DNA of 32,561 bases from an uncultured Actinomycetes bacterium (lineage in GTDB: Bacteria > Actinomycetota > Actinomycetes > Nanopelagicales > Nanopelagicaceae), in contig CAIJYZ010000042.1 of NCBI GenBank assembly GCA_903825015.1, forward strand, positions 1-32,561, in the 5' to 3' direction. The notes below the pieces were generated by a model. It made no database searches and was not told the DNA's origin. It worked only from the letters and a program-made list of their open reading frames with translations. The position numbers and the translations under genes were made by a program. Below are positions 15,522-31,986 of this stretch, piece by piece. The first letter of the stretch is position 1. Every line of letters starts with the position of its first letter.

Positions 15522-17047
15522 AGAGCTTTTACCGCATTAAGTAGTTCAGTAATACCCGCACTGCGATTTGTAAGATTGAATCGAAGGAGCGGGTATTTTC
15601 TTGAGGCTAACGCTTTCCCATCGCCCAAAGCTTGTGCAGCCACGAGCGTTTTAAAACCAAAGCTCTGACCAGGAATCGCAATATCAGTATTGCTATCGCC
15701 GGTGATCTGAAGGAAGGCTCCATTTTGTTGGCCACCTTTATGGAACTGACCGGTGGAATGTAGGAAGCGCGGACCCCATCCAAAGGTAACTGGGCGTCCA
15801 ATTTTGTGACTTAACTCGGATCGAATCTGCGCAATAGCCGCGTCATCCTTGCGATCCAAATAAGCCATTACCGCTACATAGCCACCTTCAGGAATTGATT
15901 GAATAAAGCTTTTCAAGGAAATTTCTAGATTTGCTCCTTCGCCAAAAATTTCCACTTCACCCTCTTTGTTTGTAGCGGTGAAAGTTGGAAGCACGCCATT
16001 CCACTCCTTGAGCAAGGATGATGTTGCTTCTTTGGCTTCAGTTACATTGGGTTGATTGAACGGATCGATAGCAAGTGCTGCACCAATCAACGCCGTTACC
16101 CATTCCCAAATAATGAATTGTGAAGCAAGATCTGCGTCAACAACTAGATCGGCAGTTCCTGCATACGCGATAGAGAAAACATTGGGGGAGTCTTCGCTCT
16201 TTTCAATAACGATAGGCAATCTCCCCACTTGATTTTTTCCTGTTGATTCAGCAACCAGCTGTTCTGCCCAATCACTTAAGCCAGGCATATCTGAACCGAA
16301 ATCAGTAAAGGAGAGATACTGCCCTGCGCAATATGCGAGCAAGTAAGCGATATCTACAACAATGTTTGGATCTGCGATAAATGCTGATTTGGAGTCACTG
16401 GCATTATCAAGAAGAACTGAAACATCGACACCGATAAGTGCTGCAGGAACTAATCCAAATGCACTAAGAACGCTAAATCTTCCACCAACATTGGGGTCTG
16501 CATTAATTACTGTGTATCCATCGCTACGTGAAGCTTTATCTAGCGGTGAACCTGGATCGGTAACAATAACGATGTGATCTTGTGGCTTAAGTGATGCATT
16601 AGTGAAAGCTGCTTCAAACAGGGCCCGCTGTGATGCGGTTTCTATAGTTGAACCAGATTTAGAGCTAACTACAACAATCGCTTTTTCGAGATCGCAATCG
16701 AGAGCATGTGCCACGTAATTGGGGTCAGTTGAATCTAGGACAAATAGATTCTTTTTAAAGCTTTGAGCGATAACTTCTGGGCCAAGGGATGATCCACCCA
16801 TTCCGCACAAAATTACAGTTTCCTTATCGCGATGCTTTGCACACAGAGCATCTAGCGCTGGAAGCAGTTCGCGAGAGGTTTCTGGAAGATCGATCCAGTT
16901 CAATCGAAGCGCGGCCTCGGGCTGGGCATCTTGACCCCAGATAGTTGAATCTTTAGTTACTAGGCGTAAATGCGCAGCCAATATCGCTAAATACCGCGGG
17001 TCATTGCGATCGATTTTAGTTAGTGACTTTCCGGTAATTGAAATCAT
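15518..17047 (-). CDS. pgi: Glucose-6-phosphate isomerase
   Basis: Pgi interconverts glucose-6-phosphate and fructose-6-phosphate. The 509-residue protein carries SIS-fold motifs: CGMGGSSLGPEV (81-92), SKSGSTIET (129-137), GGRFSVLS (188-195), AESTGK with the probable catalytic E267, and FHKGGQQNG with H436/K437. It is closer to the isomerase half of the bifunctional transaldolase-isomerase proteins of some bacteria than to E. coli Pgi, judged by pattern only. The start ATG 17047 overlaps the tal stop by four bases (ATGA). Last in the ctaA-tkt-tal-pgi run, it ends tail to tail with rbpA and no terminator is visible between them. Confidence 0.93.
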   Translation of the reverse strand: MISITGKSLTKIDRNDPRYLAILAAHLRLVTKDSTIWGQDAQPEAALRLNWIDLPETSRELLPALDALCAKHRDKETVILCGMGGSSLGPEVIAQSFKKNLFVLDSTDPNYVAHALDCDLEKAIVVVSSKSGSTIETASQRALFEAAFTNASLKPQDHIVIVTDPGSPLDKASRSDGYTVINADPNVGGRFSVLSAFGLVPAALIGVDVSVLLDNASDSKSAFIADPNIVVDIAYLLAYCAGQYLSFTDFGSDMPGLSDWAEQLVAESTGKNQVGRLPIVIEKSEDSPNVFSIAYAGTADLVVDADLASQFIIWEWVTALIGAALAIDPFNQPNVTEAKEATSSLLKEWNGVLPTFTATNKEGEVEIFGEGANLEISLKSFIQSIPEGGYVAVMAYLDRKDDAAIAQIRSELSHKIGRPVTFGWGPRFLHSTGQFHKGGQQNGAFLQITGDSNTDIAIPGQSFGFKTLVAAQALGDGKALASRKYPLLRFNLTNRSAGITELLNAVKAL

Positions 17048-18129
17048 TGTCTTTGCGCTGCCTTTACATTCTCTAGTAGTTCATTCCATGCTTGTGCAAA
17101 TTTCTTTACTCCATCAATTTCTAATTCAGAAGTCACTGTATCCAGTGAGATATTGAGTGCAGACAGAGCTTTGAATACTTCGACGGCGGCCGGGTATTGC
17201 GAAGTAATTGCGTTACCTCTAACTTTTCCATGATCCATAACCGCGTCAAGTGTTGCTTGTGGCATTGTGTTAACTGTTTCGGGGGCGATTAATTCGACAA
17301 CATAGCGAGTGTCATCGTATGCAGGATCCTTAACTCCAGTTGATGCCCACAGTGGGCGCTGTTTAACTGCGCCTCGCTCGACCTGGGTTTGCCATCTTGG
17401 TGAAGAAAATTTCTCTTCAAATAATTGATATGCCAAATGCGCGTTTGCGATTGCTGCCTTACCAAGCAAAGCAGTAGCAGAATCCGACCCATCCTTTTTA
17501 AGAAGTGCGTCGACGGCAGAATCGATGCGACTGACGAAGAATGAGGCTACCGAATGCACATGACCCGGATTAGTTGCTGCTTCAATTCCCCTCATGTACG
17601 CATCGATAACAGCGCCGTAGCGCTTGACTGAAAAAATTAATGTGACATTAACTGATATACCGGCGGCAATGAGCGCAGTAACTGCTGGAAGGCCTTCAAT
17701 GGTTGCCGGAACTTTAATCATCAAATTCGGACGATCAACTATCGCCCACAATTCTTTGCCCGCAGCAATCGTTGCATCAGTCTCATGTGCAAGACGTGGA
17801 TCTACCTCAATACTTACGCGACCATCTACACCCTTTGTGGCAGAGTAAATATCCTTAAATAGGTCACAAGCTGCGCGAACATCATCGGTAGTTAATTTCT
17901 GAACTACTGAATCGACATCGAGGTTTTTCATCGAAGCGATATCTGCAGAATATTCTTCTGCTCCCGCGATCGCAGCTCCAAAAATCGAGGGATTAGTTGT
18001 TACGCCAACAACACCGGAGTGTGCGATTCGAGATGGCAATGAATGCGCATCCGATCCCCTGATTTTTGCCCTTGATAAATCATCAAGCCAGATAGATGTT
18101 CCACCGGCAGCTACATCGGCAACGCTCAT
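17044..18129 (-). CDS. tal: Transaldolase
   Basis: Transaldolase moves a dihydroxyacetone unit between sugar phosphates in the non-oxidative pentose phosphate pathway. The 361-residue protein has the N-terminal SIWLDDLSR, TTNPSIFGAAI (44-54), SIEVDPRLAHET (106-117), and the Schiff-base lysine in NLMIKVPAT (K139), followed by INVTLIFS-type strands. Its length matches the longer actinobacterial form. The start ATG 18129 directly abuts the tkt stop (0 nt gap) and its stop overlaps the pgi start by four bases. tkt-tal is the normal actinobacterial order; zwf and its partners usually come next but are absent here. Confidence 0.96.
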   Translation of the reverse strand: MSVADVAAGGTSIWLDDLSRAKIRGSDAHSLPSRIAHSGVVGVTTNPSIFGAAIAGAEEYSADIASMKNLDVDSVVQKLTTDDVRAACDLFKDIYSATKGVDGRVSIEVDPRLAHETDATIAAGKELWAIVDRPNLMIKVPATIEGLPAVTALIAAGISVNVTLIFSVKRYGAVIDAYMRGIEAATNPGHVHSVASFFVSRIDSAVDALLKKDGSDSATALLGKAAIANAHLAYQLFEEKFSSPRWQTQVERGAVKQRPLWASTGVKDPAYDDTRYVVELIAPETVNTMPQATLDAVMDHGKVRGNAITSQYPAAVEVFKALSALNISLDTVTSELEIDGVKKFAQAWNELLENVKAAQRQ

Positions 18130-20175
18130 TTATAAGGCCGCCGTAATCTTGTTAACAATTGCATCAACCGAGAAGCCAAATTCGTTGAAAAGCCTCTTTG
18201 CATCAGCTGATGCTCCGTAATGCTCAAGGGAGATTGCAATGCCAGCATCACCGATTAGTTCACGCCAACCCTGTGCGATTCCAACTTCAATACTGACCTT
18301 CAATTTAACTGAAGGGGGCAGAACTGAGTCTTTGTAAGCTTGATCTTGTTCGGCAAACCATTCAAGACAGGGAGCGCTTACAACTCTCACTGCAATTCCT
18401 TGCGCAGCCAGTGCCTTTTGAACATCAATAGCAAGTGAAACTTCAGAGCCCGTTGCAATCAAAATCGCTTTAGCATCGGTAGCGTCCTTGAGAACATATG
18501 CTCCCTTGGCGCTGCCCGTTGCAGGAGCACAATCATTGCGATCAAATACGGGTAAGTTTTGGCGCGATAACAATATTCCTGCAGCCCGTCCACGAATAAG
18601 AATTTGCTTCCAGCATTCGGTTACTTCGTTGGCATCACCAGGTCGAATAACATCTAGACCCGGGATAGCGCGAAGGGCTGCAAAGTGTTCGATGGGTTGA
18701 TGGGTAGGACCATCTTCGCCCACACCAATTGAATCGTGCGTCCACACAAATGTTGATGCAACATTCATAAGCGCTGCTAATCGAACTGCGCCACGCATGT
18801 AATCGCTAAAGACAGCGAATGTGCCACCAAATGATCGGCTAAGTCCATGAATTGCAATTCCATTTAGAATTGAACCCATTGCATGTTCTCTAATACCAAA
18901 GTGGATTATGCGACCGTAGGGATTGGCGCCTTTAATTGCACTCGTTGCAGGTAGAAATGATCCACCACCTTCAATACTGGTGTTATTTGATCCAGCAAGA
19001 TCAGCTGAGCCTCCCCAAAACTCAGGCAGTCTCTTTGCGATTGCATTGATTACTTGGCCCGATGCTGCGCGAGTTGCGACATCTTTACCAGGAACAAATA
19101 CTGGAATATCTGCATCCCAACCTACGGGAAGCTCTTTAGTAAGAAGGCGTGCTAACAACGTTGCTTTGTCTGGATTAGCAGATTGCCATAATGCAAATTT
19201 TGAATCCCAATCAGTACGCAACTTTGCGCCTCTTACTTTAACTTGGCGTGCATGTTCCAATACTTCGGCAGGCATTGCAAACTTTTCATCTGGATTTAAT
19301 CCCAGTGCAACTTTAGTTGCTGCAATCTCTTCATCACCAAGGGCTGAACCATGTGAACCAGCGGTACCCTGTGCCTTTGGAGCTGGCCAAGCAATCACTG
19401 ATTTCATACGAATCAAAGTGGGTTTAGTGGTTTCATTTTTTGCTTCAACCATTGCCTTATCTAGTGAAGCCAGATCAACATTTCCATTTGCAGCGGCAGC
19501 AACATCGATTACATGCCACCCGTAAGCACGGTAACGCGCAGATACATCTTCAGTAAATGCATTATGGGTATCGCCTTCAATCGAAATGCGATTGTCATCA
19601 TAAATAACATTGAGTGCGCCTAATTCTTGTGTGCCAGCAAGGGATGATGCCTCTGCACTTACTCCTTCTTGCAAATCTCCATCTGAACAGATAACCCAGA
19701 TACTGTGATCAAAGAGGGAATTACCGGCGGGTGCAGCGGGATCTAGTAATCCACGTTCATAACGTGCTGCCATTGCCATTCCAACAGCGGTTGCAACACC
19801 TTGGCCTAATGGACCAGTTGTCATTTCAACACCAACGGTATGGCCGAACTCAGGGTGACCTGGTGTCAATGAACCCCAAGTACGAAACTCTTGCAGATCT
19901 TTTAGTTCTAATCCATATCCACTTAGAAAAAGTTGAATATATAGAGTTAAAGATGAGTGGCCACATGACAAGATAAAGCGATCTCTGCCAAGCCATTTTG
20001 CATCAGAAGGGTCATGGACTAGATGACGCTGAAATAGGTTATAGGCAACCGGTGCCAAAGACATCGCAGTACCTGGGTGGCCATTGCCAACTTTTTGTAC
20101 CGCATCTGCAGCTAAAGCACGGGCATAAGCCACGGCGCGATCATCTAATTCTGACCATCCTGTAATTGGACTCAT
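18130..20175 (-). CDS. tkt: Transketolase
   Basis: Transketolase shifts two-carbon units between sugar phosphates using thiamine diphosphate. Over 681 residues the protein shows GHPGTAMSLAPVAY (32-45), GPLGQG (121-126), the cofactor/Mg motif SDGDLQEG (164-171) with YDDNRISI (192-199), the catalytic-glutamate segment GVGEDGPTHQPIEH, and the C-terminal domain with ATGSEVSLA. Length is typical. ATG 20175 overlaps the ctaA stop by one base (TAATG), so tkt lies in the same transcript as ctaA. No promoter of its own is evident. The gene is intact. Confidence 0.98.
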   Translation of the reverse strand: MSPITGWSELDDRAVAYARALAADAVQKVGNGHPGTAMSLAPVAYNLFQRHLVHDPSDAKWLGRDRFILSCGHSSLTLYIQLFLSGYGLELKDLQEFRTWGSLTPGHPEFGHTVGVEMTTGPLGQGVATAVGMAMAARYERGLLDPAAPAGNSLFDHSIWVICSDGDLQEGVSAEASSLAGTQELGALNVIYDDNRISIEGDTHNAFTEDVSARYRAYGWHVIDVAAAANGNVDLASLDKAMVEAKNETTKPTLIRMKSVIAWPAPKAQGTAGSHGSALGDEEIAATKVALGLNPDEKFAMPAEVLEHARQVKVRGAKLRTDWDSKFALWQSANPDKATLLARLLTKELPVGWDADIPVFVPGKDVATRAASGQVINAIAKRLPEFWGGSADLAGSNNTSIEGGGSFLPATSAIKGANPYGRIIHFGIREHAMGSILNGIAIHGLSRSFGGTFAVFSDYMRGAVRLAALMNVASTFVWTHDSIGVGEDGPTHQPIEHFAALRAIPGLDVIRPGDANEVTECWKQILIRGRAAGILLSRQNLPVFDRNDCAPATGSAKGAYVLKDATDAKAILIATGSEVSLAIDVQKALAAQGIAVRVVSAPCLEWFAEQDQAYKDSVLPPSVKLKVSIEVGIAQGWRELIGDAGIAISLEHYGASADAKRLFNEFGFSVDAIVNKITAAL

Positions 20176-21053
20176 TAATTTATTTCCATTTCCTTAAACT
20201 GAACTGAAAGCCAGATTTGCCACGCTGCAATCCAAACTAAAGCCGAACCTAATAAATGCGCTGCTACTAAAAGCTGCGGCACACCTTGCAGATATTGAAT
20301 GTAACCAATCGATCCTTGTGCCATTGAAACTAAGAAAAAGATTAAGAGTCGGCTCTTAGTTAATGAAGAAATATCTTTGCGCAAATAGAAAGCAATGGTA
20401 AAGAAGATAAGAATGGCAACTGCAACTCCATGCATCAATGCTGCCTCTTGAATCCTGATGTGTAAGCGAGGCGCTTGAAAATCTCCAGCGTGTGGGCCGG
20501 CACCAGTAACTACGGTTCCTAAAATAATTACAAAAGTTGCCCACATAACGTGAACCTTTGAATAGCTATTTATCTGTCCCTTAATTCCAGTTTTTACCGC
20601 TGGTGCTTTGCGCCGTGAATGAAGAGATGTAGCTGCAGCGATTAAGATCGTTGAGAGTAAGAAGTGGCTTGCCACAGATATCGGATTCAGGTGCGTAAGA
20701 ACTGTTATGCCGCCAAGCACGCCTTGACCAAAAATTCCCAAAAATTGGCCAATTGCAAGGAAGCGAAGATCTTTTCGGCCTGCCTTGAACACTGCGATTA
20801 ATGTCGCAATAGCAATGGCAACCATCACGAAAGTTAGCAATCGATTTGTAAACTCAATCCAGGAGTGAACTGTTCCTTCTGCCTGATTTTTGATTGGCAC
20901 GTATGAACCCGGAGTGCACTCGGGCCATGTGGGGCATCCAAGTCCCGAGCCTGTCAGCCGAACCGCGCCTCCCGTAACGACGATCGCGGCTTGAGAAATA
21001 AGTAAGGCCAAGGTCAGAGGGGAAAGGGCACGAGCTGCGCGTGTGGATGCCAT
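20175..21053 (-). CDS. ctaA: Heme A synthase (CtaA/COX15 family)
   Basis: CtaA oxidises a methyl of heme O to make heme A for aa3-type cytochrome c oxidase, in the cytoplasmic membrane. The 292-residue protein has about eight hydrophobic helices, TGGAVRLTGSGLGCP near 27-41, a cysteine pair C40/C46 in the first external loop, the EXXXH motif (E59, H63), and further candidate heme ligands H130, H208 and H266. ATG 21053 is the start. It is the first gene of the - strand ctaA-tkt-tal-pgi unit. In many actinobacteria ctaB and ctaA flank this region; no ctaB is present here. The upstream TAGGGT suggests a leaderless transcript. Confidence 0.93.
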   Translation of the reverse strand: MASTRAARALSPLTLALLISQAAIVVTGGAVRLTGSGLGCPTWPECTPGSYVPIKNQAEGTVHSWIEFTNRLLTFVMVAIAIATLIAVFKAGRKDLRFLAIGQFLGIFGQGVLGGITVLTHLNPISVASHFLLSTILIAAATSLHSRRKAPAVKTGIKGQINSYSKVHVMWATFVIILGTVVTGAGPHAGDFQAPRLHIRIQEAALMHGVAVAILIFFTIAFYLRKDISSLTKSRLLIFFLVSMAQGSIGYIQYLQGVPQLLVAAHLLGSALVWIAAWQIWLSVQFKEMEIN

Positions 21054-21059
21054 AGCCCA

Positions 21060-21065
21060 ACCCTA
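21060..21065 (-). promoter_or_regulatory. Candidate -10 element of a leaderless ctaA promoter
   Basis: On the - strand TAGGGT ends 6 nt before the ctaA ATG (intervening TGGGCT). No Shine-Dalgarno is present, so transcription would begin at the start codon. No -35 is recognisable. Same arrangement as coaE, DUF3099 and fabG. Confidence 0.4.
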
Positions 21066-21101
21066 TGGCTCAGGCGCCTTAGGCGGGCCGAGTGGCCGAA
21101 G

Positions 21102-21130
21102 GTGTCGAATTACGACACAATACTGTTGTG
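21102..21130 (+). promoter_or_regulatory. Probable SufR operator: two overlapping inverted repeats
   Basis: Two perfect inverted repeats overlap just ahead of sufR. The first is GTGTCG-AATTA-CGACAC (21102-21118), the second CACAA-TACTG-TTGTG (21116-21130); both have 5-nt spacers. They cover the region where the sufR promoter must lie (CACAAT at 21116 or AATACT at 21119 are possible -10 elements). SufR homologues are known autorepressors that bind inverted repeats upstream of suf genes, so operator function is likely by position; binding is inferred. Confidence 0.6.
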
Positions 21131-21133
21131 AAA

Positions 21134-21814
21134 ATGAGCAGCCAACCCAGCGCACTTCCCGGTGATGATTCACGCACCCGTGACCTTGTGGCCCGCTCAA
21201 TTCTTGAAAATGGACCATCAACTGCAGCCGTATTGGGTGAGCGTTTAGGACTGACAGCTGCAGGAATCCGTCGACACCTGGATCTTCTTGTTGGAGATGG
21301 AGTACTTCAGGCGCGCGAACCACATTCGGCACTTATTCGTGGTCGAGGTCGTCCTTCAAAAGTTTTTGTAATGAGTGATAAAGGTCGAGAGCAGTTTGAA
21401 CATTCTTATGATGATTTAGCTGTTGCAGCACTTAAATTTATGTCAGTGCACTCTGGAGATCACTTAGTCACCAGCTTTGCTCAATCAAGAGCAGAAGACA
21501 TCGAACGTAAAGCAAATGTCTCAATTTCCAGTAAGGCAAATAAATCTGAAGCAATCGCAGAATTCTTAAGCGAGCAAGGCTACGCCGCGAGTATTCATCA
21601 AAAACCAATGGGTGAAGAGCTTTGCCAGCATCACTGCCCAATTGCACATGTTGCATCTGAGTTTCCTCAACTTTGTGAAGCCGAGACTGAAGCGCTTTCT
21701 CGTCTTCTTGGAACTCATGTTCAGCGCTTAGCAACAATTGCGCACGGTGATGGCGTGTGTACGACTTTTATACCGAAAATATCCGCCCCAACAAAGCGAA
21801 AGGTACGTGCATGA
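21134..21814 (+). CDS. sufR: Fe-S cluster sensing transcriptional repressor SufR
   Basis: SufR represses the suf operon when it carries an Fe-S cluster and releases it under iron or oxidative stress. The 226-residue protein has an N-terminal winged helix-turn-helix ([29 protein letters not shown], about 29-57, shown in segments: [11 protein letters not shown] is the recognition part) with a wing GRGRPSK (70-76), and a C-terminal cysteine set C164, C168, C181, C209 suited to binding a cluster. ATG 21134 is chosen; GTG 21128 two codons upstream is equally possible and would suit a leaderless mRNA. The stop overlaps the sufB ATG by four bases. It heads the suf operon and is preceded by twin inverted repeats. 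Confidence 0.93.
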
Positions 21815-23220
21815 CTATCGCACATCCAGAACTCGAAGGAATCGGCAACTATGAATATGGTTGGTCCGATAAGTCCGATGTAGGCACAAATGCAAAACGT
21901 GGACTTAATGAAGATGTTGTGCGCGATATTTCTGCGAAGAAATCTGAACCACAGTGGATGTTGGATCTACGCCTTAAAGGTTTGGGACTCTTTGAAAAGA
22001 AGCCGATGCCTAACTGGGGATCAGATCTCTCCGGAATCTTTTTCGATACGATCAAATATTTCGTTCGCTCAACTGAAAAGCAAGCAGCGACTTGGGATGA
22101 TTTGCCTGATGAGATCAAAAATACTTACGATCGCTTAGGTATCCCTGAAGCAGAGAAGCAGCGCTTAGTTTCTGGTGTAGCCGCTCAGTACGAATCCGAA
22201 GTTGTTTATCATTCAATTCGTGAAGATCTTGAAAAACAAGGCGTGATCTTTCTTGATACAGATAGCGCGCTCAAGCAGCACCCTGAACTCTTTAAAGAGT
22301 ATTTCGGAACTGTAATTCCTGTTGGTGATAATAAATTTGCCGCTCTAAATACATCGGTTTGGTCGGGCGGATCCTTTATCTATGTCCCTAAAGGCGTGCA
22401 CGTAGATATTCCACTTCAAGCATATTTCCGTATTAATACTGAGAATATGGGGCAGTTCGAACGCACACTAATCATTGCCGACGAGGATTCCTATATTCAC
22501 TACGTAGAAGGTTGTACTGCACCAATCTATAAATCAGATTCGCTGCACTCAGCTGTTGTAGAAATCATTGTGAAAAAAGGTGCACGTGTTCGTTACACCA
22601 CGATTCAAAACTGGTCTAACAATGTTTACAACTTGGTAACAAAGCGCGCTACCTGTGCAGAGGGCGCGACAATGGAATGGGTGGATGGAAATATTGGTTC
22701 AAAAGTAACCATGAAGTACCCAGCTATCTTTTTGATGGGGCCACACGCAAAGGGCGAGACGCTGTCTCTTGCTTTTGCTGGAGAAGGCCAGCATCAAGAT
22801 TCAGGTGCAAAGATGGTTCACGCCGCTCCTTACACATCATCATCTGTAATTTCGAAATCTGTTGCACGCAATGGTGGTCGCACTTCATACCGTGGACTTG
22901 TCCAAGTTCAAGAAGGCGCGCATCATTCCAAGAGCACTGTTAAATGCGATGCCCTGCTTGTTGACACGATCTCACGTTCAGATACATATCCCTATGTAGA
23001 TATTCGTGAAGATGATGTATCAATGGGACACGAAGCCACTGTTTCAAAAATCTCAGATGATCAACTTTTCTATTTGATGTCAAGAGGATTAACTGAAGAT
23101 GAAGCCATGGCGATGATTGTTCGTGGATTTATCGAACCAATCGCCCGAGAACTTCCTATGGAATATGCCCTCGAACTCAATCGTCTTATCGAACTTCAAA
23201 TGGAAGGTGCCGTTGGTTAA
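21811..23220 (+). CDS. sufB: Fe-S cluster assembly scaffold protein SufB
   Basis: SufB is the scaffold subunit of the SufBC2D complex on which Fe-S clusters are built. The 469-residue protein has the N-terminal [15 protein letters not shown], the core beta-helix region with VEGCTAPIY (C235), and the C-terminal block with C379 (STVKCDALL) and H407/E408 (SMGHEATVS), which line up with the cluster-assembly Cys and His/Glu of E. coli SufB. The frame is open into sufR, but ATG 21811 overlaps the sufR stop (ATGA) and gives the usual start [10 protein letters not shown]. The stop shares one base with sufD. Fully intact. Confidence 0.97.
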
Positions 23221-24302
23221 TGTCAGTTTTAGCAACTAATTACTTAACACCGACTGGACGAGAAGAAGCGTGGCGTTTCACGCCGCTCAAACGACTTCGC
23301 GGTCTGCACGATGGGACATGCGTTACATCGCAGCGCCATTCTCTTATTTCAAAGGCACCTCTACCTGCTGGTGTCACGTTTACGCGTGAAGCACTTTCCC
23401 CTCTTGCAGTTAGCGATGACGTAATTATCGAACGAGTTCGTGGCGGCGCTGTTGATGTTGCACATCTTTCAATCGCCAGCAATACAGAACTGGCAGATGC
23501 AATCTTTTTGACGCGCTCAGAAGGCTCTCTCGATTCTGCAGAGCTTTCTCGTGTTCGTATTTCACTTGGAACTCATGCAAAAGCTACGGTGATTGTTGAA
23601 AATATTGGTGAGACAGTATTAGCTGAAGATTTTGAAATCTCCTTAGCACCAGGGTCTTGTCTGACTTTTGTTTCATTGCAAGAGTTCGATTCAAAGAGTG
23701 TATATACAGCCCGTCACCACGCAGTGGTGGATAAAGATGCAACCTTTAAATCAATAACGGTCACCGTCGGGGGAGATGTTGTCCGGATCCTTCCAACGGT
23801 TGAATTCACTGCCCCCGGAGCATCTGCAGAACTCTTAGGTGTTTACTTTGCAACCACAGGTCAGTTTTTTGAACACCGTATGCATGTCGATCACGCAGTT
23901 CCACATGCTAAATCTCGAGTCAATTACAAAGGCGCTCTAGCTGGCAGAGATGCACACACTGTTTGGATTGGTGACGTGTTGATTCGCGCCGTTGCCGAAG
24001 GTACTGATACTTATGAACTCAATCGAAACCTTCTTTTAACTGACGGTGCGCGAGCAGATTCAGTGCCAAATCTTGAAATCGAAACTGGTGAAATTGTCGG
24101 TGCGGGGCACGCAAGTACCACTGGCCGCTTTGATGACGAGCAGCTGTTCTATTTGATGTCACGTGGAATCACACTCGAAGATGCTCGACGATTGGTCGTG
24201 CGTGGTTTCTTCAATGAAATCATCTCCGAAATTAACAACGAAGAAGTCCAGGAACGTCTCATGAATCGCATAGATGGCGAACTTGAAAGAGCTGGTGCCT
24301 AA
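23220..24302 (+). CDS. sufD: Fe-S cluster assembly protein SufD
   Basis: SufD is the SufB paralogue that pairs with it in SufBC2D and is needed for iron entry. The 360-residue protein begins with GREEAWRFTPLKRL (13-26), typical of SufD, and ends with a domain matching SufB: VNYKGALAGRDAHTVW, NLEIETGEIVGAGHAS with H297 in the position of the conserved SufD histidine, then [17 protein letters not shown] 23220 overlaps the sufB stop by one base. The ferredoxin gene starts directly after its stop codon. Sequence between about residues 60 and 150 is less conserved, as usual for this family. Confidence 0.96.
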   Translation: MSVLATNYLTPTGREEAWRFTPLKRLRGLHDGTCVTSQRHSLISKAPLPAGVTFTREALSPLAVSDDVIIERVRGGAVDVAHLSIASNTELADAIFLTRSEGSLDSAELSRVRISLGTHAKATVIVENIGETVLAEDFEISLAPGSCLTFVSLQEFDSKSVYTARHHAVVDKDATFKSITVTVGGDVVRILPTVEFTAPGASAELLGVYFATTGQFFEHRMHVDHAVPHAKSRVNYKGALAGRDAHTVWIGDVLIRAVAEGTDTYELNRNLLLTDGARADSVPNLEIETGEIVGAGHASTTGRFDDEQLFYLMSRGITLEDARRLVVRGFFNEIISEINNEEVQERLMNRIDGELERAGA

Positions 24303-24599
24303 ATGTCTGATTTAACTTTGGACCAGCTTTCACCAGGTAAACCGATGCGCATTGAAAAAGATGGCAAAAGCATTTGCGTCACAAAGATCGGTGATCAAGT
24401 TTTCGCCGTTGATGACACTTGTACGCACTCGGATGCATCACTTTCTGAAGGTGACATTACGGATTTCAAGATTGAGTGTTGGTTACATGGCGCAGAATTT
24501 GATCTTCGCAACGGCCAGGCCCTTACATTGCCAGCAACGCAACCTTTAGAAACTTATGCAGTAAAAATCGACGGAAATTCCGTCACGGTAGAGATTTAG
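24303..24599 (+). CDS. Rieske-type [2Fe-2S] ferredoxin of the suf operon
   Basis: A 98-residue single-domain Rieske protein with Cys-X-His at C40/H42 (DDTCTHSDASLSEG) and Cys-X2-His at C59/H62 (ECWLHGAEFDL). This is the form annotated as the ferredoxin subunit of non-heme oxygenases. Within actinobacterial suf operons a gene like it commonly lies between sufD and sufC, so electron supply or cluster trafficking for SUF is plausible but unproven. It lacks the disulfide Cys pair of respiratory Rieske proteins. ATG 24303 immediately follows the sufD stop with no gap. No signal peptide or membrane segment, so cytoplasmic. Confidence 0.92.
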   Translation: MSDLTLDQLSPGKPMRIEKDGKSICVTKIGDQVFAVDDTCTHSDASLSEGDITDFKIECWLHGAEFDLRNGQALTLPATQPLETYAVKIDGNSVTVEI

Positions 24600-24622
24600 T
24601 ACACGAGAAGAGAAGAGAAAAA

Positions 24623-25375
24623 ATGAGCACTCTAGAAATCCGCGGACTGAAAGTTTCAGTCAATACAGATAATGGAACAGTCGATATTCTTAAAGGTGTT
24701 GACCTAACGATTAAATCTGGCGAGACTCACGCAATCATGGGGCCTAACGGCTCAGGAAAATCAACTCTTGCTTACTCCATTGCAGGTCATCCTAAATACA
24801 CAATCACTGGCGGTTCTGTAACTCTTGATGGTGCCGATGTATTGGCTATGACAGTTGACGAACGTGCCAAAGCGGGGCTCTTTCTTGCAATGCAATATCC
24901 GGTAGAAGTTCCGGGGGTTTCGGTTTCAAACTTTCTTCGCACTGCAGCTACTGCTCTACGCGGTGAAGCTCCAAAGCTTCGTACATGGGTTGCAGAAGTT
25001 AAAGGCGCAATGGAGGCTCTTAATATGGATGCATCATTTGCCACAAGAAATGTAAACGAGGGATTTTCTGGAGGCGAGAAGAAGCGCCACGAGATTATGC
25101 AGCTTGAGCTACTAAAACCAAAGATGGCGATTTTAGATGAAACAGATTCAGGGTTAGATGTAGACGCCCTGCGCATTGTTTCTGAGGGAGTTAATCGAGC
25201 AAAGGCAGATAACAATCTCGGAGTTCTCCTAATTACTCACTACACACGAATTCTAAAATACATTAAGCCAGATTTCGTTCATGTCTTTGCTAACGGACAC
25301 ATTGTTGAAGAAGGTGGCCCGGATCTAGCTGACAAGCTAGAGGCAAATGGATATGCAGATTACGTGACTAAGTAA
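24623..25375 (+). CDS. sufC: Fe-S cluster assembly ATPase SufC
   Basis: SufC is the ABC-type ATPase of the SufBC2D scaffold. The 250 residues show Walker A GPNGSGKS (40-47), the Q-loop AMQYPVEVPGVS, the signature FSGGEKKR (148-155) in the family form ending KKRHEIMQL, Walker B MAILDETDSGLD (168-179, catalytic E173), and the switch His in LLITHYTRI. The LDETDSGLD segment is characteristic of SufC rather than transporters. The 23-nt gap after the ferredoxin gene holds a purine-rich run AGAAGAGAAGAG that can act as Shine-Dalgarno for ATG 24623. sufS follows after 6 nt. Confidence 0.97.
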   Translation: MSTLEIRGLKVSVNTDNGTVDILKGVDLTIKSGETHAIMGPNGSGKSTLAYSIAGHPKYTITGGSVTLDGADVLAMTVDERAKAGLFLAMQYPVEVPGVSVSNFLRTAATALRGEAPKLRTWVAEVKGAMEALNMDASFATRNVNEGFSGGEKKRHEIMQLELLKPKMAILDETDSGLDVDALRIVSEGVNRAKADNNLGVLLITHYTRILKYIKPDFVHVFANGHIVEEGGPDLADKLEANGYADYVTK

Positions 25376-25381
25376 TTTTCG

Positions 25382-26632
25382 ATGAGTTTTTCTGTTGCGA
25401 ATGTACGCAAAGATTTCCCAATCTTTGAACGTACTATTCGCGACGGCAAAAGATTGGTCTATTTAGATAGTGGGGCTACAGCTCAAAAACCTTGGGCGGT
25501 AATCAATGCCGAAAGTGATTTTTACTCAAAACATAACGCTGCAGTCCATCGTGGCGCGCATCAATTAGCCGAAGAAGCAACTGATGCATATGAAGGTGCG
25601 CGAGCAATTGTCGCCGAATTTATCGGGGCAAATGAAAATGAAATCATATTTACTAAAAACGCCACCGAATCTCTCAATCTTGTGGCTTACGCCATGGGCA
25701 ACGCCGATAAAGGAAATCGCTTTGCTCTCAACAGCGATGACTCAATTGTTGTAACCGAGATGGAGCACCACGCAAATCTGATCCCTTGGCAGCAGTTGGC
25801 AAAGCGCACTGGCGCTGCACTTTCTTGGTTCAAAGTAACTGAAGGCTCGCGTTTAGATTTGAGTAATATCAATCAAGTTATTACAAGTAACACCAAAGTT
25901 GTCGCAGTTACCCATCAATCAAATGTTCTTGGCACTATCAATCCGCTTGAGGCGATAGTCGCGCGAGCACATGAGGTTGGTGCCGTTGTAGTGCTGGACG
26001 CTTGTCAATCAGTTCCACATATGAAAGTTGATGTCACAGAACTCGGTGTTGATTTCTTAGCTTTTTCAGGACATAAAGCAGTTGGACCAACTGGTGTCGG
26101 AGTTCTATGGGGTAAACCTGAACTACTTGACGCGCTGCCACCATTTTTAACTGGTGGCTCTATGGTCTCCAGCGTGACGATGACTGATGCAACCTGGGCG
26201 GACGTCCCACAGAAATTTGAAGCGGGCGTTCCGAACATGGCTCAAGCTGTTGGGCTTGGTGCAGCATTGAACTATCTCTCCACTATCGGCATGGACGCGA
26301 TTCGCGAACATGAAATCTCTTTGACTGAATACGCACTTGAGAAAATGCTTGCTATTCCAGGAATCAGAATTATTGGGCCTCAAAACAATGTTTCCAGAGG
26401 CGCAACGATCGCCTTCACAATTGAGGATATCCATCCTCACGATGTGGGTCAGTTTGTGGATAGTCAAGGAGTTGCAGTTAGAACTGGACATCACTGTGCC
26501 TGGCCACTTGCTAAGTGCATGAATGTACCTGCAACCACACGCGCTTCCTTCTATCTATACAACGACGAACAAGATGTTGATGCTTTAGTTGAAGCAGTTG
26601 TAGGTGCTCAGAAATACTTTGGGAGGTTTTGA
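25382..26632 (+). CDS. sufS: Cysteine desulfurase SufS
   Basis: SufS is a PLP enzyme that takes sulfur from L-cysteine as a persulfide for Fe-S assembly. The 416-residue type II desulfurase has YLDSGATAQKP (27-37), EMEHHANLIPW (126-136), D206 for the PLP ring nitrogen, the Schiff-base lysine in FSGHKAVGPTG (K232), and the persulfide-forming cysteine in RTGHHCAWP (C372). ATG 25382 is the start, 6 nt after sufC. The stop shares one base with sufU, its usual sulfur-accepting partner in Gram-positives, which fits a SufS-SufU transfer pair. Confidence 0.97.
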   Translation: MSFSVANVRKDFPIFERTIRDGKRLVYLDSGATAQKPWAVINAESDFYSKHNAAVHRGAHQLAEEATDAYEGARAIVAEFIGANENEIIFTKNATESLNLVAYAMGNADKGNRFALNSDDSIVVTEMEHHANLIPWQQLAKRTGAALSWFKVTEGSRLDLSNINQVITSNTKVVAVTHQSNVLGTINPLEAIVARAHEVGAVVVLDACQSVPHMKVDVTELGVDFLAFSGHKAVGPTGVGVLWGKPELLDALPPFLTGGSMVSSVTMTDATWADVPQKFEAGVPNMAQAVGLGAALNYLSTIGMDAIREHEISLTEYALEKMLAIPGIRIIGPQNNVSRGATIAFTIEDIHPHDVGQFVDSQGVAVRTGHHCAWPLAKCMNVPATTRASFYLYNDEQDVDALVEAVVGAQKYFGRF

Positions 26633-27075
26633 TGCAACTAGATTCTCTGTATCAAGAAGTAATTTTGGATCACTACAAACACCCGCAGCACAAAGGTTTA
26701 AGCCCAATTTTTACCGCTCAGGTTCATCATGTGAATACTAGTTGTGGTGATGAAATTACTCTCAATCTCAACATTGAAAACAATGTGATCACTTCACTAA
26801 CTTGGGATGGTCAAGGCTGCTCTATCTCGCAGGCAAGCGTTTCAATGCTTAGTGATTTATTAATCGAAAAAAGCCTAGAAGAAGCAGATGTGATTGCTAA
26901 ATCATTTTCGCAACTAATGGCGAGCAAGGGCACTTCCGATGGGGATCCTGAGATTCTCGAGGACGCTGTTGCTTTTGCTGGAGTATCAAAGTTTCCAGGA
27001 CGGGTAAAGTGTGCCCTGCTTGGATGGATGGCCTTTAAAGATGCAGCAATTCAGTCACAAGGAGAGAGTAAATGA
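26632..27075 (+). CDS. sufU: Zinc-dependent sulfurtransferase SufU
   Basis: SufU accepts sulfur from SufS and passes it to SufB; it is IscU-like but works as a zinc protein in Gram-positives. The 147-residue protein starts MQLDSLYQEVILDHYKHP and has the ligands C38 and D40 (TSCGDE), C63 (QGCSIS) and C127 (RVKCALLGW). The ~18-residue insertion between the second and third cysteines, typical of SufU, is present. A TTG one codon upstream is in frame, but ATG 26632, overlapping the sufS stop, has the Shine-Dalgarno GGGAGG (26621-26626). Its stop overlaps the next ATG by four bases. Confidence 0.96.
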   Translation: MQLDSLYQEVILDHYKHPQHKGLSPIFTAQVHHVNTSCGDEITLNLNIENNVITSLTWDGQGCSISQASVSMLSDLLIEKSLEEADVIAKSFSQLMASKGTSDGDPEILEDAVAFAGVSKFPGRVKCALLGWMAFKDAAIQSQGESK

Positions 27076-27383
27076 CTACAAGTGTTGATGATGTAACTGA
27101 GGCGATGAAGGATGTCGTCGACCCCGAACTGGGAATCAACGTTGTTGATCTCGGGCTTATATATGACGTTATGGTCGATGAAGCCAATATTGCAATATTG
27201 AATATGACTTTAACCTCTGCTGCATGTCCGCTGCAAGATGTTATCGAAGATCAAACACGTTCGGCATTAGCTGGCATGACTAGCGATGTAAAGATTAACT
27301 GGGTATGGATGCCACCTTGGGGTCCGGACAAAATTTCTGATGACGGTCGTGACCAACTTCGAGCACTTGGATTCACGGTCTGA
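27072..27383 (+). CDS. sufT: SufT / MIP18-like (DUF59) Fe-S assembly factor
   Basis: A 103-residue DUF59 protein, related to SufT and PaaD and to eukaryotic MIP18, which help mature Fe-S proteins. Family signs are VDPELGINVVDLGLIYDV (16-33) and LTSAACPLQD with the conserved C52. ATG 27072 overlaps the sufU stop (ATGA), and its place at the end of the suf operon supports the name SufT. Its specific clients are unknown. PaaD proper has an extra C-terminal zinc ribbon, missing here. No terminator is seen in the 24 nt before the transporter gene. Confidence 0.9.
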   Translation: MTTSVDDVTEAMKDVVDPELGINVVDLGLIYDVMVDEANIAILNMTLTSAACPLQDVIEDQTRSALAGMTSDVKINWVWMPPWGPDKISDDGRDQLRALGFTV

Positions 27384-27407
27384 GCATTAACTCAATAAGG
27401 TAGTCAC

Positions 27408-29279
27408 ATGTCTCAACATGCGGCTTGGATGACTCACAGATCGATGACAGCTGATCCTTCAGTTAAAGCACAGAAGTTAAAGCCTGGAACGGTCAAACGG
27501 ATCTTTACTTTTGCAAAGCCGTATCGATTAAGTATCTGGATTTTTCTATTTACAGTTGTAGTAGATGCTGTGTTAATCGTTGCAACTCCACTTCTGTTAC
27601 GTCAACTCATCGATAAAGGTGTCATTCCAAAGGATGGCGCACTTGTCACAAAACTTGCCATCTATGTTGGGTTACTAGCAATTGCAGATGCTGGCATGAG
27701 CTTGTTGGGTCGTTACTACTCCTCTCGTATTGGCGAAGGATTAATTTATGATCTTCGTTCTCTAGTTTTTGGCCATGTTCAAAAGCAGTCCATCGCATTC
27801 TTTACTCGAACTCAGACTGGCGCACTTATTTCTCGAATTAACTCCGATGTTATGGGCGCGCAACAGGCTTTTACTGCAACACTTTCTGGCCTTGTCAGCA
27901 ATGTTGTAAGTCTTGTTCTCGTTGGTGCCACGATGTTGATTTTGTCTTGGCAGATTACTATCTTCTCTCTTTTACTTTTGCCGGCATTTCTGATTCCAAC
28001 TAAGTGGGTCGGCCGCAAACTTCAAGCTTTAACCCGCGACTCCTTCAACACCAACGCTGAGATGTCGAGCACCATGACCGAGCGTTTTAATGTTTCAGGT
28101 GCCATGTTGGTTGCCCTGTACGGTCAACCTGCTCGCGAACGCGAATACTTCAGATCTAGAGCACGAAGAGTTGCAGACATTGGAATCAAAATGGCTATGC
28201 TCAATCGGCTCTTCTTTATCGCTTTAACAAGCGTTGCAGCGATCGCCACTGCCTTTGCATATGGAATCGGTGGACATTTAGCAATCAGTGGTGGAGTCAC
28301 GGTCGGAACTTTGCTTGCAATCACGGCGCTATTGGCACGCCTATATGGTCCCTTGACGGCGCTTTCAAATGTTCGTATCGATGTTATGACTTCATTGGTT
28401 TCATTTGAAAGAGTTTTTGAAGTCTTAGATCTAGAGCCTATGGTTAAGAATCGTCCTAACGCCATTGAACTAAAGACAACACATCCGACAATTGAATTTA
28501 GAAATGTTAGCTTCTCTTATCCGCGCGCAGAGGAAATCTCTCTTGCTTCACTTGAATCTGCAGCAAAGCCTGAAACAGTGCAAAGTGGTGAAATCCTTCA
28601 TGGGCTTTCATTTACGGCACCAGCCGGAACACTTACTGCACTTGTAGGTCCATCAGGTGCGGGTAAAACTACGATAAGCGCCCTATTGCCAAGACTCTAT
28701 GACGTAACATCTGGTTCAATAGAAATTGATGGAAAAGACATTCGTGACTTAACTCTTGAGACATTGCGCGGTGCAATCGGTGTCGTAATGCAGGACGCAC
28801 ATTTATTCCATGAAACAATCGCTGAAAATCTTCGTTATGCAAAAATCGACGCTACTGAAGATGAAATGCGTGCAGCATGCGAGTCTGCACAAATATGGAA
28901 ACTCATTGAGTCTCTTCCAAATGGATTAGACACGATGGTGGGGGAGCGAGGACACCGGTTATCAGGCGGTGAGAAGCAACGGCTAGCCATTGCGCGGTTG
29001 TTGCTTAAAGCCCCTTCAGTAGTAATTTTAGATGAAGCGACTGCTCATTTGGATTCAGAAAATGAAGCCCTCGTTCAGGCAGCACTGCAAAGTGCACTGA
29101 AGGGCCGAACAAGTATTGTCATAGCACATCGCCTCAGCACTGTTCGAGAAGCTGATCAAATTCTTGTACTTGAAAAAGGTGTGATCGTGGAACGAGGAAC
29201 GCACGATCAACTTGTCATACGCGCGGGTCTATACGCCGACTTATACAACCGGCAGGATTTAACGGGGGCGACGAATTAA
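27408..29279 (+). CDS. ABC exporter, fused permease and ATPase
   Basis: A 623-residue half-transporter with six predicted membrane helices (roughly residues 42-320) followed by an ATPase domain: Walker A GPSGAGKT (414-421), signature LSGGEKQ (518-524), Walker B VVILDEA (538-544) with catalytic E543, and switch H574 (VIAHRLS). All catalytic residues are present, so a homodimer is possible; no partner half is adjacent. An insertion of about 20 residues (near 374-395) lies between the first beta strand and Walker A of the ATPase. The substrate is not identifiable. It sits 24 nt after sufT with AAGG (27397-27400) before ATG 27408, so it may be read from the suf promoter. The last 21 bases overlap the opposing SURF1 gene. 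Confidence 0.93.
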   Translation: MSQHAAWMTHRSMTADPSVKAQKLKPGTVKRIFTFAKPYRLSIWIFLFTVVVDAVLIVATPLLLRQLIDKGVIPKDGALVTKLAIYVGLLAIADAGMSLLGRYYSSRIGEGLIYDLRSLVFGHVQKQSIAFFTRTQTGALISRINSDVMGAQQAFTATLSGLVSNVVSLVLVGATMLILSWQITIFSLLLLPAFLIPTKWVGRKLQALTRDSFNTNAEMSSTMTERFNVSGAMLVALYGQPAREREYFRSRARRVADIGIKMAMLNRLFFIALTSVAAIATAFAYGIGGHLAISGGVTVGTLLAITALLARLYGPLTALSNVRIDVMTSLVSFERVFEVLDLEPMVKNRPNAIELKTTHPTIEFRNVSFSYPRAEEISLASLESAAKPETVQSGEILHGLSFTAPAGTLTALVGPSGAGKTTISALLPRLYDVTSGSIEIDGKDIRDLTLETLRGAIGVVMQDAHLFHETIAENLRYAKIDATEDEMRAACESAQIWKLIESLPNGLDTMVGERGHRLSGGEKQRLAIARLLLKAPSVVILDEATAHLDSENEALVQAALQSALKGRTSIVIAHRLSTVREADQILVLEKGVIVERGTHDQLVIRAGLYADLYNRQDLTGATN

Positions 29280-29951
29280 TATTCGTCCATAGACAACAAG
29301 TCCAGCGAAAAAGAGCCACTGCAATGCATATGCCATATGCGGACCATCACTTAGTTCTGGCAGTTGCGCCGTGACAGCTGGAGTGAGCGAAGGATCCGAT
29401 CCACTCAATAAATCAATGTAATAGTCTTCGGTATTGAGTCGGGATTGTGCATCTAGTTTTGAAATTAATCCCGAGCCATTTGCCGGAAGTGCAAAAAATG
29501 AGCCTCGCGGTAGCGATGAATCAAGTCGAACTCTGCCATTAATAGTTACTACACCTTCGGGAACCTTCCTAATTACAGGCTGTGTCGTAGCATTTGCACC
29601 AGCTTTAACCCACCCTCGATCGACCCAAAACTTCTTTTGGTTTTCATCCTTAAAGAGTGTCAAGACTTCAAAACCATAGACACCTTCAGAGTATCTATTT
29701 CTAAGGAGAATCTGTTGTGTTGGATCAAATTTGCCCAAGATGCTCACAGTTCGCCACTCTGCAGCAAGCGGGGTGATTGCCGCAGAACTAGGAATTTCGG
29801 AAAGAGCTATGCGCTTTTCAATCATTGAATTGCGAGCATGCCTATCAACGCCTCGATGGTATTGCCATTGCGCTGCAACTAAACATAAGAAAATTAAAGC
29901 AAGTGCTACCAGTGATTTGAGATATGCATAGGGTTCTCGAACTTTGCTCAT
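29259..29951 (-). CDS. SURF1 family cytochrome oxidase assembly protein
   Basis: SURF1 proteins help insert heme a into subunit I of aa3 cytochrome c oxidase. The 230-residue protein has the classic layout: an N-terminal membrane helix (about 11-28) ending in LVAAQWQYHRG, an external domain with LLRNRYSEGVYGFEVLT and FWVDRGWV, then a C-terminal helix beginning with GPHMAYALQWLFFAGL. It agrees with the presence of ctaA in the window. ATG 29951 is 3 nt after the DUF3099 stop, so the two form an operon. The stop at 29259-29261 lies inside the end of the opposing ABC exporter gene, an overlap of 21 bases. Confidence 0.92.
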   Translation of the reverse strand: MSKVREPYAYLKSLVALALIFLCLVAAQWQYHRGVDRHARNSMIEKRIALSEIPSSAAITPLAAEWRTVSILGKFDPTQQILLRNRYSEGVYGFEVLTLFKDENQKKFWVDRGWVKAGANATTQPVIRKVPEGVVTINGRVRLDSSLPRGSFFALPANGSGLISKLDAQSRLNTEDYYIDLLSGSDPSLTPAVTAQLPELSDGPHMAYALQWLFFAGLVVYGRILIRRPR

Positions 29952-29954
29952 AAT

Positions 29955-30227
29955 TTAATCGAGAGATAAAGGTTTTTCTTGGATGATCTGATTGTTATTT
30001 GTCATCGTTTCCCGACCGGCATTTGCAATTACAACGGCAAAATACGGAAGTCCAGCGGCTCCGGCGAGTGCGATCCACCTAAAGGGGCTCGGCAAAAGTA
30101 CGGTCAAAATAAAGCAGAGAGTTCGGATCATCATCGAGATGAAATATCTCTTTTGGCGACCTGCCTGATCATTAGTTAGGGCTAAAGGTGCATTGGTTAT
30201 ATCGAATACTTTCTTTTCTTTAGCCAT
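29955..30227 (-). CDS. DUF3099 small membrane protein
   Basis: A 90-residue protein matching DUF3099, an uncharacterised actinobacterial family. The family pattern is visible as QKRYFISMMIRTLCFI followed by two hydrophobic segments (about 32-48 and 50-68) separated by a Pro/Trp turn (PSPFRW), then VIANAGRE. The N-terminus (MAKEKKVFDITNAPLALTND) is hydrophilic and likely cytoplasmic. It is first in a two-gene unit with SURF1 and divergent from fabG; this neighbourhood is common in actinobacteria as far as I recall. A role in respiration or envelope assembly is only a guess from context. Confidence 0.85.
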   Translation of the reverse strand: MAKEKKVFDITNAPLALTNDQAGRQKRYFISMMIRTLCFILTVLLPSPFRWIALAGAAGLPYFAVVIANAGRETMTNNNQIIQEKPLSLD

Positions 30228-30233
30228 GTATCA

Positions 30234-30239
30234 AGAGTA
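30234..30239 (-). promoter_or_regulatory. Candidate -10 element of a leaderless DUF3099 promoter
   Basis: TACTCT on the - strand ends 6 nt before the DUF3099 ATG (intervening TGATAC), fitting TANNNT with a start at the ATG. No Shine-Dalgarno is seen. A short inverted repeat GCGC-ACTGAT-GCGC (30247-30260) lies just upstream, between this and the fabG promoter. Confidence 0.4.
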
Positions 30240-30265
30240 GTGCTCGGCGCACTGATGCGCTTCTT

Positions 30266-30293
30266 TTGAATACCTCACGGTAACTAGTAAGTT
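30266..30293 (+). promoter_or_regulatory. Candidate fabG promoter (-35 and -10), leaderless
   Basis: TTGAAT (30266-30271) and TAAGTT (30288-30293) are separated by 16 nt, and the -10 ends 6 nt before ATG 30300. This is the best-formed of the four leaderless-type promoters because a -35 is also visible. Inference from consensus only. Confidence 0.5.
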
Positions 30294-30299
30294 TTGGGC

Positions 30300-31004
30300 A
30301 TGAGTTCTTTGGCCTTAGTCACTGGCGGAAACCGCGGAATTGGATTAGCAATCGCACATTCTCTGGCTAAGGCCGGTCACGATGTTGTTGTGACTTATCG
30401 CAGCGGCCCAGCCCCCACTGGATTTAAGGCCGTGGTGATGGATGTAACTAGTACTGAGAGCGTCGATAAAGCCTTCAATGAGATTGAAGAACAATGGGGA
30501 ATACCTGAAATTATTGTGGCCAATGCTGGAATCACCAAAGATGGCCTAGTAATGCGAATGAGTGATGAAGATTTTGAATCAGTCATTGATGCGAATTTAA
30601 CCGGTGCATTTCGTGTCGCACGTCGCGCAACTAAAGGTTTACTCAAGTTAAAAAGAGGTCGGTTAATTTTCGTGGGTTCAGTTGTAGGTGCTCTAGGTTC
30701 GGCGGGACAAGTTAACTACTCATCCTCAAAATCTGGCCTTGTTGGAATGGCTCGTTCATTTGCCCGTGAGATTGGAAGCAGGGGAATCACAGCAAATGTC
30801 ATCGCCCCTGGTTTTGTTGAAACCGATATGACAGCAACCCTTGATGAAAAACGCCGCAATGAAATCGCTGGCTCGATTCCATTGGGACGTTTTTGTTCGG
30901 CGGAGGAAATCGCAGATGTAGTAAGTTTTATTGCATCTCCACAAGCAAGCTATATCTCTGGTGCTCTCATTCCAGTTGATGGCGGATTAGGAATGGGTCA
31001 CTGA
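30300..31004 (+). CDS. fabG: 3-oxoacyl-ACP reductase, FabG/MabA type
   Basis: FabG reduces beta-ketoacyl-ACP with NADPH in type II fatty acid synthesis. The 234-residue short-chain dehydrogenase has GGNRGIG (9-15), ANAGIT (74-79), N99, S127, Y140 and K144 (YSSSK), and the PGFVETDM segment. The catalytic tetrad is complete. The frame extends to a TTG at 30294, but ATG 30300 fits the family start and the promoter spacing. It lies one base before the enoyl reductase gene, giving the mabA-inhA type pair of actinobacteria. Without the pair, FabG would be hard to tell from other SDRs; with it the call is firm. Confidence 0.93.
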   Translation: MSSLALVTGGNRGIGLAIAHSLAKAGHDVVVTYRSGPAPTGFKAVVMDVTSTESVDKAFNEIEEQWGIPEIIVANAGITKDGLVMRMSDEDFESVIDANLTGAFRVARRATKGLLKLKRGRLIFVGSVVGALGSAGQVNYSSSKSGLVGMARSFAREIGSRGITANVIAPGFVETDMTATLDEKRRNEIAGSIPLGRFCSAEEIADVVSFIASPQASYISGALIPVDGGLGMGH

Positions 31005-31005
31005 A

Positions 31006-31776: not shown

Positions 31777-31805
31777 GCGCTCAATTTCACCTTTTTCGCC
31801 CTTAA

Positions 31806-31860
31806 CGGTAACCTTTGCCCCAGACCAGTGGCTTAACAACCACTGCAAGAGGAGTTACCG
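31806..31860 (+). ncRNA. Structured RNA element in the infC leader
   Basis: The 210-nt spacer between fabI and infC (31777-31986) holds nested inverted repeats. CGGTAAC (31806-31812) pairs perfectly with GTTACCG (31854-31860), enclosing a second perfect hairpin CAGTGG (31826-31831) / CCACTG (31840-31845) with the loop CTTAACAA. A further 8-bp palindrome CACTAGTG lies at 31877-31884. I do not recognise a known riboswitch class. It could be a leader controlling infC or a processed 3' element of fabI. No protein-coding gene is supported in this spacer. Confidence 0.5.
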
Positions 31861-31902
31861 CTCCCACCTTCATCGCCACTAGTGCGAGCTGGTATGTCGG
31901 AT

Positions 31903-31980
31903 AAGAGATTTATTTCTCTTTTTCCTTGCGGTTTTCTTTTGCAGCGCTGTTAAACCAAAGCGTTAGACAAAGCCGAAGGA
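31903..31980 (+). promoter_or_regulatory. Possible attenuator hairpin and Shine-Dalgarno-masking stem of infC
   Basis: AAGAGA (31903-31908) pairs with TCTCTT (31915-31920) around TTTATT, followed by a T run, a weak terminator shape. Directly downstream TCCTT-g-CGG (31923-31931) can pair with CCGAAGGA (31973-31980, one bulged G), which would bury the infC Shine-Dalgarno GAAGGAG (31975-31981). Either could control infC expression. The pairings are read by eye; their stability was not computed. Confidence 0.4.
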
Positions 31981-31986
31981 GCACAA

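Follow-up and report, generated by a model that had tools for sequence, protein, structure and literature searches.

A clade-specific second palindrome overlapping the putative SufR promoter-operator of the suf operon in a genus of Nanopelagicaceae

The window (the whole analysed stretch of DNA, 32,561 nt, from a bacterium that probably lives in fresh water) contains the divergent genes ctaA and sufR, with two overlapping palindromes, P1 and P2, at the start of sufR (Table 1), which heads an operon for the assembly of iron-sulfur clusters. Directly 3' of sufR lies sufB (PF01458), followed by SufD-, Rieske-, SufC-, SufS-, SufU- and SufT-like frames, and sufR is, as in the Rv1460 type, the first gene of a sufB-D-C-S-U-T operon, all genes of which except sufB were named by eye. 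The gene name sufR, already given in an earlier note on this DNA, is correct: the frame is of the SufR type, its cysteines are spaced as in Rv1460, and sufB is next to it. The protein matches TIGR02702 (SufR_cyano) with E=3.3e-18 and 66.1 bits, below the curated cut-off of 178.8; a Pfam search assigned no family to it, and a PDB search produced three distant proteins only (E 0.002–0.005). C170, C183 and C211 are kept in all eight aligned SufR proteins, and their spacings, 13 and 28, equal those of C203, C216 and C244 in Rv1460 (numbering from PMC6034842). The reported cluster ligand pattern C-X12-C-X13-C-X14-C (PMC8593673) is not matched, as C170-X12-C183 is present, no cysteine is found at 197, and the next one is C211.

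Table 1. Coordinates of the genes and of the observed and predicted control elements in the window
Feature	Position	Strand	Remarks
ctaA (heme A synthase, COX15-CtaA)	20175–21053	–	divergent neighbour outside the element; PF02628, 79.3 bits (cut-off 29.9)
–35-like hexamer GTGGCC (relatives: TTGGC or TTTGC)	21092–21097	+	putative promoter element, 18 bp 5' of the –10
P1 palindrome GTGTCG-N5-CGACAC	21102–21118	none	dyad centre 21110; spacer AATTA
P1 left arm GTGTCG	21102–21107	+	clade-specific box inside the –35/–10 spacer
–10 hexamer CACAAT	21116–21121	+	putative; P2 left arm within it
P2 palindrome CACAA-N5-TTGTG	21116–21130	none	dyad centre 21123; spacer TACTG; putative SufR operator core
GTG start codon, putative +1 of leaderless mRNA	21128–21130	+	in the P2 right arm
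sufR, SufR-type winged-helix repressor, C-terminal cysteines	21128–21814	+	GTG start; first suf operon gene

The divergent ctaA is present in 39 of the 41 genus loci found by protein search, the other two, L006 and L041, having just about 20–24 bp of upstream sequence. This gene also looks leaderless, with TAGGGT on the minus strand (21054–21065), six bases ahead of the ATG; many of the clade rows inspected by eye read ACCCTA or AGCCTA there.

SufR matches were found in 282 of the 296 genomes of the class sample. In one family, f36, SufR matches are absent from 11 of 13 sampled genomes and weak in the remaining two, and this family seems to have lost or replaced SufR. Three records titled 'Bifidobacterium breve' (L195, L199, L201) encode SufR 74–81% identical to that of the window and are probably mislabelled metagenome bins.

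The genus alignment comprises 99 rows anchored on GTTGTGAA in frame, with L006, L030, L031, L041 and L073 dropped. Sixty of these rows were retrieved by a right-hand motif search, hence their right-hand conservation is selected, while the left arm of P1 lies outside the search pattern. With at most three mismatches this search matched 201 of the 296 genomes of the family, including 120 of the 135 in the genus; the 15 genus misses are nine assemblies without a sufR match, one fragment, one cut contig, and G463, G492, G511 and G526. The class alignment started from 44 loci (40 plus four retrieved), reduced to 42 as L179 and L186 were dropped. For the tree, identical proteins were collapsed into one, and L137, being too short, was left out.

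Both palindromes are perfect and lie exactly where the earlier note had placed them, with CAC at 21116–21118 common to the two. As that note also proposed, the pair overlaps the probable –10 region, CACAAT, recognized from relatives with TACATT at the same place: eight of the 55 genus species outside the clade described below have this variant, which supports CACAAT as the –10 hexamer. A21117 and T21121 are invariant in 96 genus species and occur in 42/42 and 39/42 class loci, respectively. In the –35-like hexamer, columns 21093–21095 are conserved in the genus, and most class rows have TT at 21092–21093 (33/42 and 37/42). A scan with the sigma-70 consensus found no promoter.

The sufR start codon lies inside the right arm of P2, a point absent from the earlier note. 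The start is most likely GTG 21128, since relatives lacking the ATG six bases downstream still read GTGAAA; this GTG is present in 99 genus and 42 class rows, thus in all alignable class rows, in alignments that are anchored on this very spot. The gene is probably leaderless, and the start point would coincide with the GTG codon, in part by analogy with the position described for Streptomyces avermitilis (PMC11995493).

As palindromes, P1 and P2 are unremarkable singly: the window contains 12 perfect 6-N5-6 palindromes compared to 9.6 per shuffle, and 39 of the 5-N5-5 type compared to 36.9. Overlapping twins of the P1/P2 type are somewhat unusual (two, versus 0.2 per shuffle). With counts so close to chance, the case for P1 and P2 rests on conservation across relatives. 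The genome from which the window comes (G000) has one exact match to the P1 pattern and five to the P2 pattern. The additional P2 matches were considered as a possible regulon and rejected, as L270–L272 lie inside open frames (636, 1018 and 366 bp) and L273 just past a stop codon. At L273 (positions 501–515, contig C120) CACAA-N5-TTGTG is followed by AAAA, as at sufR, and no long frame begins right there.

A P2 site is found directly at the GTG in 40 of the 41 protein-found genus loci, using a pattern that permits variants at several positions; the single locus without it, L006, has its contig end about 20 bp upstream. Phylogenetic footprinting gives a divided answer for P2: it is kept within the genus, where 87 of 99 rows have CACAA as the left half, and outside the genus just the core CACA-N7-TGTG tends to persist. 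Among 31 dyad centres tested in 42 class loci, the best is 21123 (0.57), owing to CACA-N7-TGTG, followed by 21119 (0.52) and 21121.5, the published centre (0.47). In the 42 of 44 class loci that aligned (anchored on TGTG), A21108, A21117, T21126–G21130 and A21132 are invariant. A 20-bp consensus across P2, allowing for up to three mismatches, has a single match in the own genome. Part of the P2 conservation has other causes, namely the start codon and the –10 hexamer.

The central base of P2, 21123, alternates between C and G, having changed 26 times in 96 species, of which 52 have G, 43 have C and one has A, a pattern unlike that of any variable four-fold site of sufR. It fits a dyad, but was rejected as proof of one, as CACAA rows outside the genus set also have A or T at this position (7 of 12 distinct rows).

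The SufR operator described for S. avermitilis is CAAC-N6-GTTG, with its first part over the –10 AACAAT and the last G of GTTG at the start point; Corynebacterium glutamicum is reported to have nearly the same operator (PMC11995493). Of 16 named Streptomyces, 15 (all except L262) have CAAC-N6-GTTG at this place, with the last G of GTTG in the GTG codon, as is that of the GTTG in the window. By alignment, the left half of the operator in the window would likewise lie over the –10 hexamer and its right half would end at the predicted start point. Unlike the S. avermitilis operator, perfect CAAC-N6-GTTG is absent from the window; ACAC-N6-GTTG is found instead at 21115–21128, and the better palindrome, CACAA-N5-TTGTG, is shifted by 1.5 bp. 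Since position and register coincide, P2 would be a diverged version of the published operator. The earlier note had proposed that one of the two palindromes could be the SufR operator, and for P2 this agrees with the class-wide operator-promoter core in the S. avermitilis register, with SufR binding predicted from that agreement. P2 is thus an ordinary class-wide SufR promoter-operator, a putative binding site, and a promoter-operator of this kind, fused to the start codon, is recognizable by sequence in 42 of 44 sampled class loci.

The arrangement resembles that of M. tuberculosis Rv1460 (SufR), for which a leaderless start, autorepression and a ChIP-seq site near the start codon are described (PMC6034842), Rv1460 also being the first gene of its suf operon; leaderless transcription of sufR in the window is predicted here. 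The passages of the same paper considered here mention no second palindrome, unlike what is seen in the window. P1 is also absent from the Streptomyces rows.

In some other actinomycete families a further kind of box is seen upstream of sufR. The motif T[T/A]AGG-N4-CCTT, which we take to be an IdeR/DtxR-like box, was found in 10 of 37 class loci scanned, at about –51 from the sufR GTG in L155–L158, L161, L167, L169 and L187, and at about –86/–88 in L162 and L165. These boxes are candidates for iron control of suf outside the genus of the window.

The left arm of P1 has a different history. Among the 99 genus rows it reads GTGTCG in 37, ATGTCG in three and GAGTCG in one, and these 41 cluster together in a tree of 139 SufR proteins, corresponding to one gain and one later change (L120). 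The group has SH-aLRT support of 86 on the protein tree, computed without bootstrap, and in a DNA tree the same 41 lie on one side of a branch with SH-aLRT 94. In the 41-species clade the six left-arm columns have undergone 2, 1, 0, 0, 0 and 0 changes (three in total), compared to 8, 10, 6, 10 and 11 (45 in total) in the five columns 21097–21101, and to 84 changes in the same six columns of the 55 non-clade species. Thirty-five four-fold sites of sufR have a mean of 14.0 changes in the clade; when six such sites were drawn at random 200,000 times, the sum was never three or less. From these comparisons, the GTGTCG box is under strong selection in the clade and free elsewhere; by sequence evidence, it was gained once and then held by strong purifying selection. 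Footprinting therefore answers for P1 in two ways as well, the left arm being kept inside the clade and not outside it, in relatives that have sufR-sufB.

The right arm of P1, CGACAC, belongs to the old operator: G21114, A21117 and C21118 are invariant in the 55 non-clade species too, and these species have A21115 in 52 cases and C21116 in 47, other letters being frequent at the right arm outside the genus. C21113 changes five times in the clade and its partner G21107 never; as these changes are uncompensated, strict palindromy is not kept beyond GTGTC/GACAC.

In a whole-genome scan of 296 family genomes, GTGTCGAATTANGACAC occurs exactly once in each of 45 of the 135 genus genomes and in none of the 161 other family genomes. 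All 45 copies are at the sufR operator: 37 are in rows of the genus alignment, and of the eight placed separately, seven are beside a SufR frame and one (L278) is at the same operator, cut by the contig end. P1 arms with other spacers yield 12 scattered single cases in the 296 family genomes, and a reversed control pattern is scattered too; with a free spacer, GTGTCG-N5-CGACAC is found outside sufR in three clade genomes only (G452, G010, G482) out of 59 genomes. P1 was also considered as an element of ctaA and rejected, as the ctaA–sufR gap in 12 clade loci ranges between 74 and 96 bp, and with it the distance of P1 to ctaA, while its distance to the sufR GTG is constant.

The earlier note had suggested that one palindrome might serve a second, iron or redox, regulator. 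A global site of the Fur, DtxR or Rrf2 type would be expected several times per genome, and the single copy of P1 with its spacer, at sufR, speaks against a genome-wide regulon under iron or redox control; such a role for P1 was rejected. Four regulator families were searched for in 26 genus genomes, 13 with the box and 13 without, and no link to the clade was observed. Rrf2, the family to which IscR belongs, had no match in any of the 26. For DtxR/IdeR none of the 26 had a match above the cut-off, the two weak matches being one on each side of the clade boundary. Fur and TetR were each found in all 26, hence on both sides of it. Among the frames at 17000–32561, inspected by eye, no other regulator gene was seen.

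The same note had alternatively proposed two SufR sites giving graded repression. This is unlikely as worded, since P2 reads ACA...TGT and P1 reads TGT...ACA, half-sites of opposite polarity that one dimer geometry cannot read in both cases. The recognition helix of SufR corresponds to residues 44–56 of the predicted structure (mean pLDDT 81.5), where no clade-specific change was found at the threshold used. Co-evolution of P1 with SufR specificity was therefore regarded as weak: A20L, T83S and F190L are nearly fixed in the clade, but lie outside the helix and may be merely other changes on the same branch.

For P1 to be palindromic with the old half-site by chance, some six bases would have to match at one of just a few spacings, and a dimeric protein would be its natural reader. 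This protein may quite possibly be SufR in a second mode, to which we give slightly less than an even chance; in its favour, no other regulator is known to have a site here, and the four other families searched in 26 genomes show no link to the clade. A dedicated second dimeric protein is nearly as likely.

The main rival to our interpretation is that P1 is the operator of a dedicated second dimeric repressor or activator, acting at sufR only in the clade and competing with SufR for CGACAC. The opposite polarity of P1, the unchanged recognition helix of SufR, and the palindromic, single-copy character of P1 with this spacer at sufR all agree with it, and yet no clade-specific regulator is seen among the Rrf2, Fur, DtxR and TetR proteins of the 26 genomes or, by eye, in the frames around sufR, so that we regard it as possible, tentatively. 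It is unlikely that P1 serves as another SufR operator equivalent to P2. SufR is the sole regulator known to act here, GTGTCG resembles the GTGTTG located 21 bp downstream (five of six bases where 21123 is G, four of six in the window), and Synechocystis is described as having high- and low-affinity SufR sites (PMC6034842); the opposed half-sites make the same dimer geometry unusable, making 'two equal SufR sites' improbable, and most of the genus has no P1. Still less probable is that GTGTC and GACAC are inverted cores for monomeric WhiA rather than a site for a dimer. WhiA footprints of S. venezuelae are described as centred on GACAC, with GTGTC at other targets (PMC3781837), but the pair with this spacer is confined to sufR, and the GTGTC core is broken in 4 of 41 clade species (ATGTC, GAGTC). 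Finally, it is hardly credible that the two palindromes are random inverted repeats that happen to lie in a conserved promoter and do not act as operators, for near-random palindrome counts and the demands of the start codon and –10 hexamer on P2 leave unexplained both the conservation of C21118, A21119 and GTGTCG beyond that of a TANNNT-like –10 and the published SufR operator in the same register (PMC11995493).

Known systems provide partial parallels for two sites in one control region. Cyanobacterial SufR sites are described as CAAC-N6-GTTG, with high- and low-affinity sites in Synechocystis (PMC8593673, PMC6034842). These lie between the divergent sufR and sufBCDS, one per transcript unit; the palindromes of the window belong to one promoter, where they overlap and are unlike in sequence and polarity. 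The type 1 and type 2 sites of IscR (PMC6034842) are a precedent for a cluster-sensing regulator with two distinct motifs. By this analogy, the SufR of the clade might read both overlapping palindromes of opposite polarity depending on its cluster state, a rather improbable variant in our estimate. In it, a hexamer added so as to complement half of the old operator would give a single promoter three states in place of the two of a repressor switch, and we rate this step just as low.

Our preferred interpretation, which we consider likely, is that a leaderless sufR-suf operon, repressed by its own SufR, has its promoter-operator in these 29 bp, with P2 as the ancestral SufR operator and P1 as a later accessory contact. 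P2 would be the ancestral operator of Actinomycetes in the form characteristic of this genus, on which a cluster-loaded SufR dimer would keep RNA polymerase out by occupying the –10 hexamer, the start point and the GTG codon. As the right arm of P2 contains the start codon, the bound repressor would cover all three together. Loss of the cluster would release SufR, as suggested by published work on this regulator. One clade then gained GTGTCG in the –35/–10 spacer, a hexamer that complements the CGACAC which the genus operator already had. With the middle half-site common to both palindromes and 13 bp between their centres, dimers on each would compete or touch; and as P1 lies in the –35/–10 spacer and has three bases in common with P2, its occupancy would both block the promoter and interfere with P2. 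P1 would thereby be an accessory contact tuning repression of the single sufR promoter, as far as its sequence and position indicate.

The SufR operator itself was already known, and what is new is the clade-specific second palindrome overlapping it; a limited literature search found no papers naming both SufR and Nanopelagic. The locus catches the birth of a regulatory site, as 45 genomes with the arm and 55 sampled species without it allow a comparison of one and the same promoter, in a set of small-genome bacteria whose single-contig genomes in this genus are 1.3–1.5 Mb. If SufR does read P1, the clade would serve as a simple model for how regulators come to recognize an additional motif.
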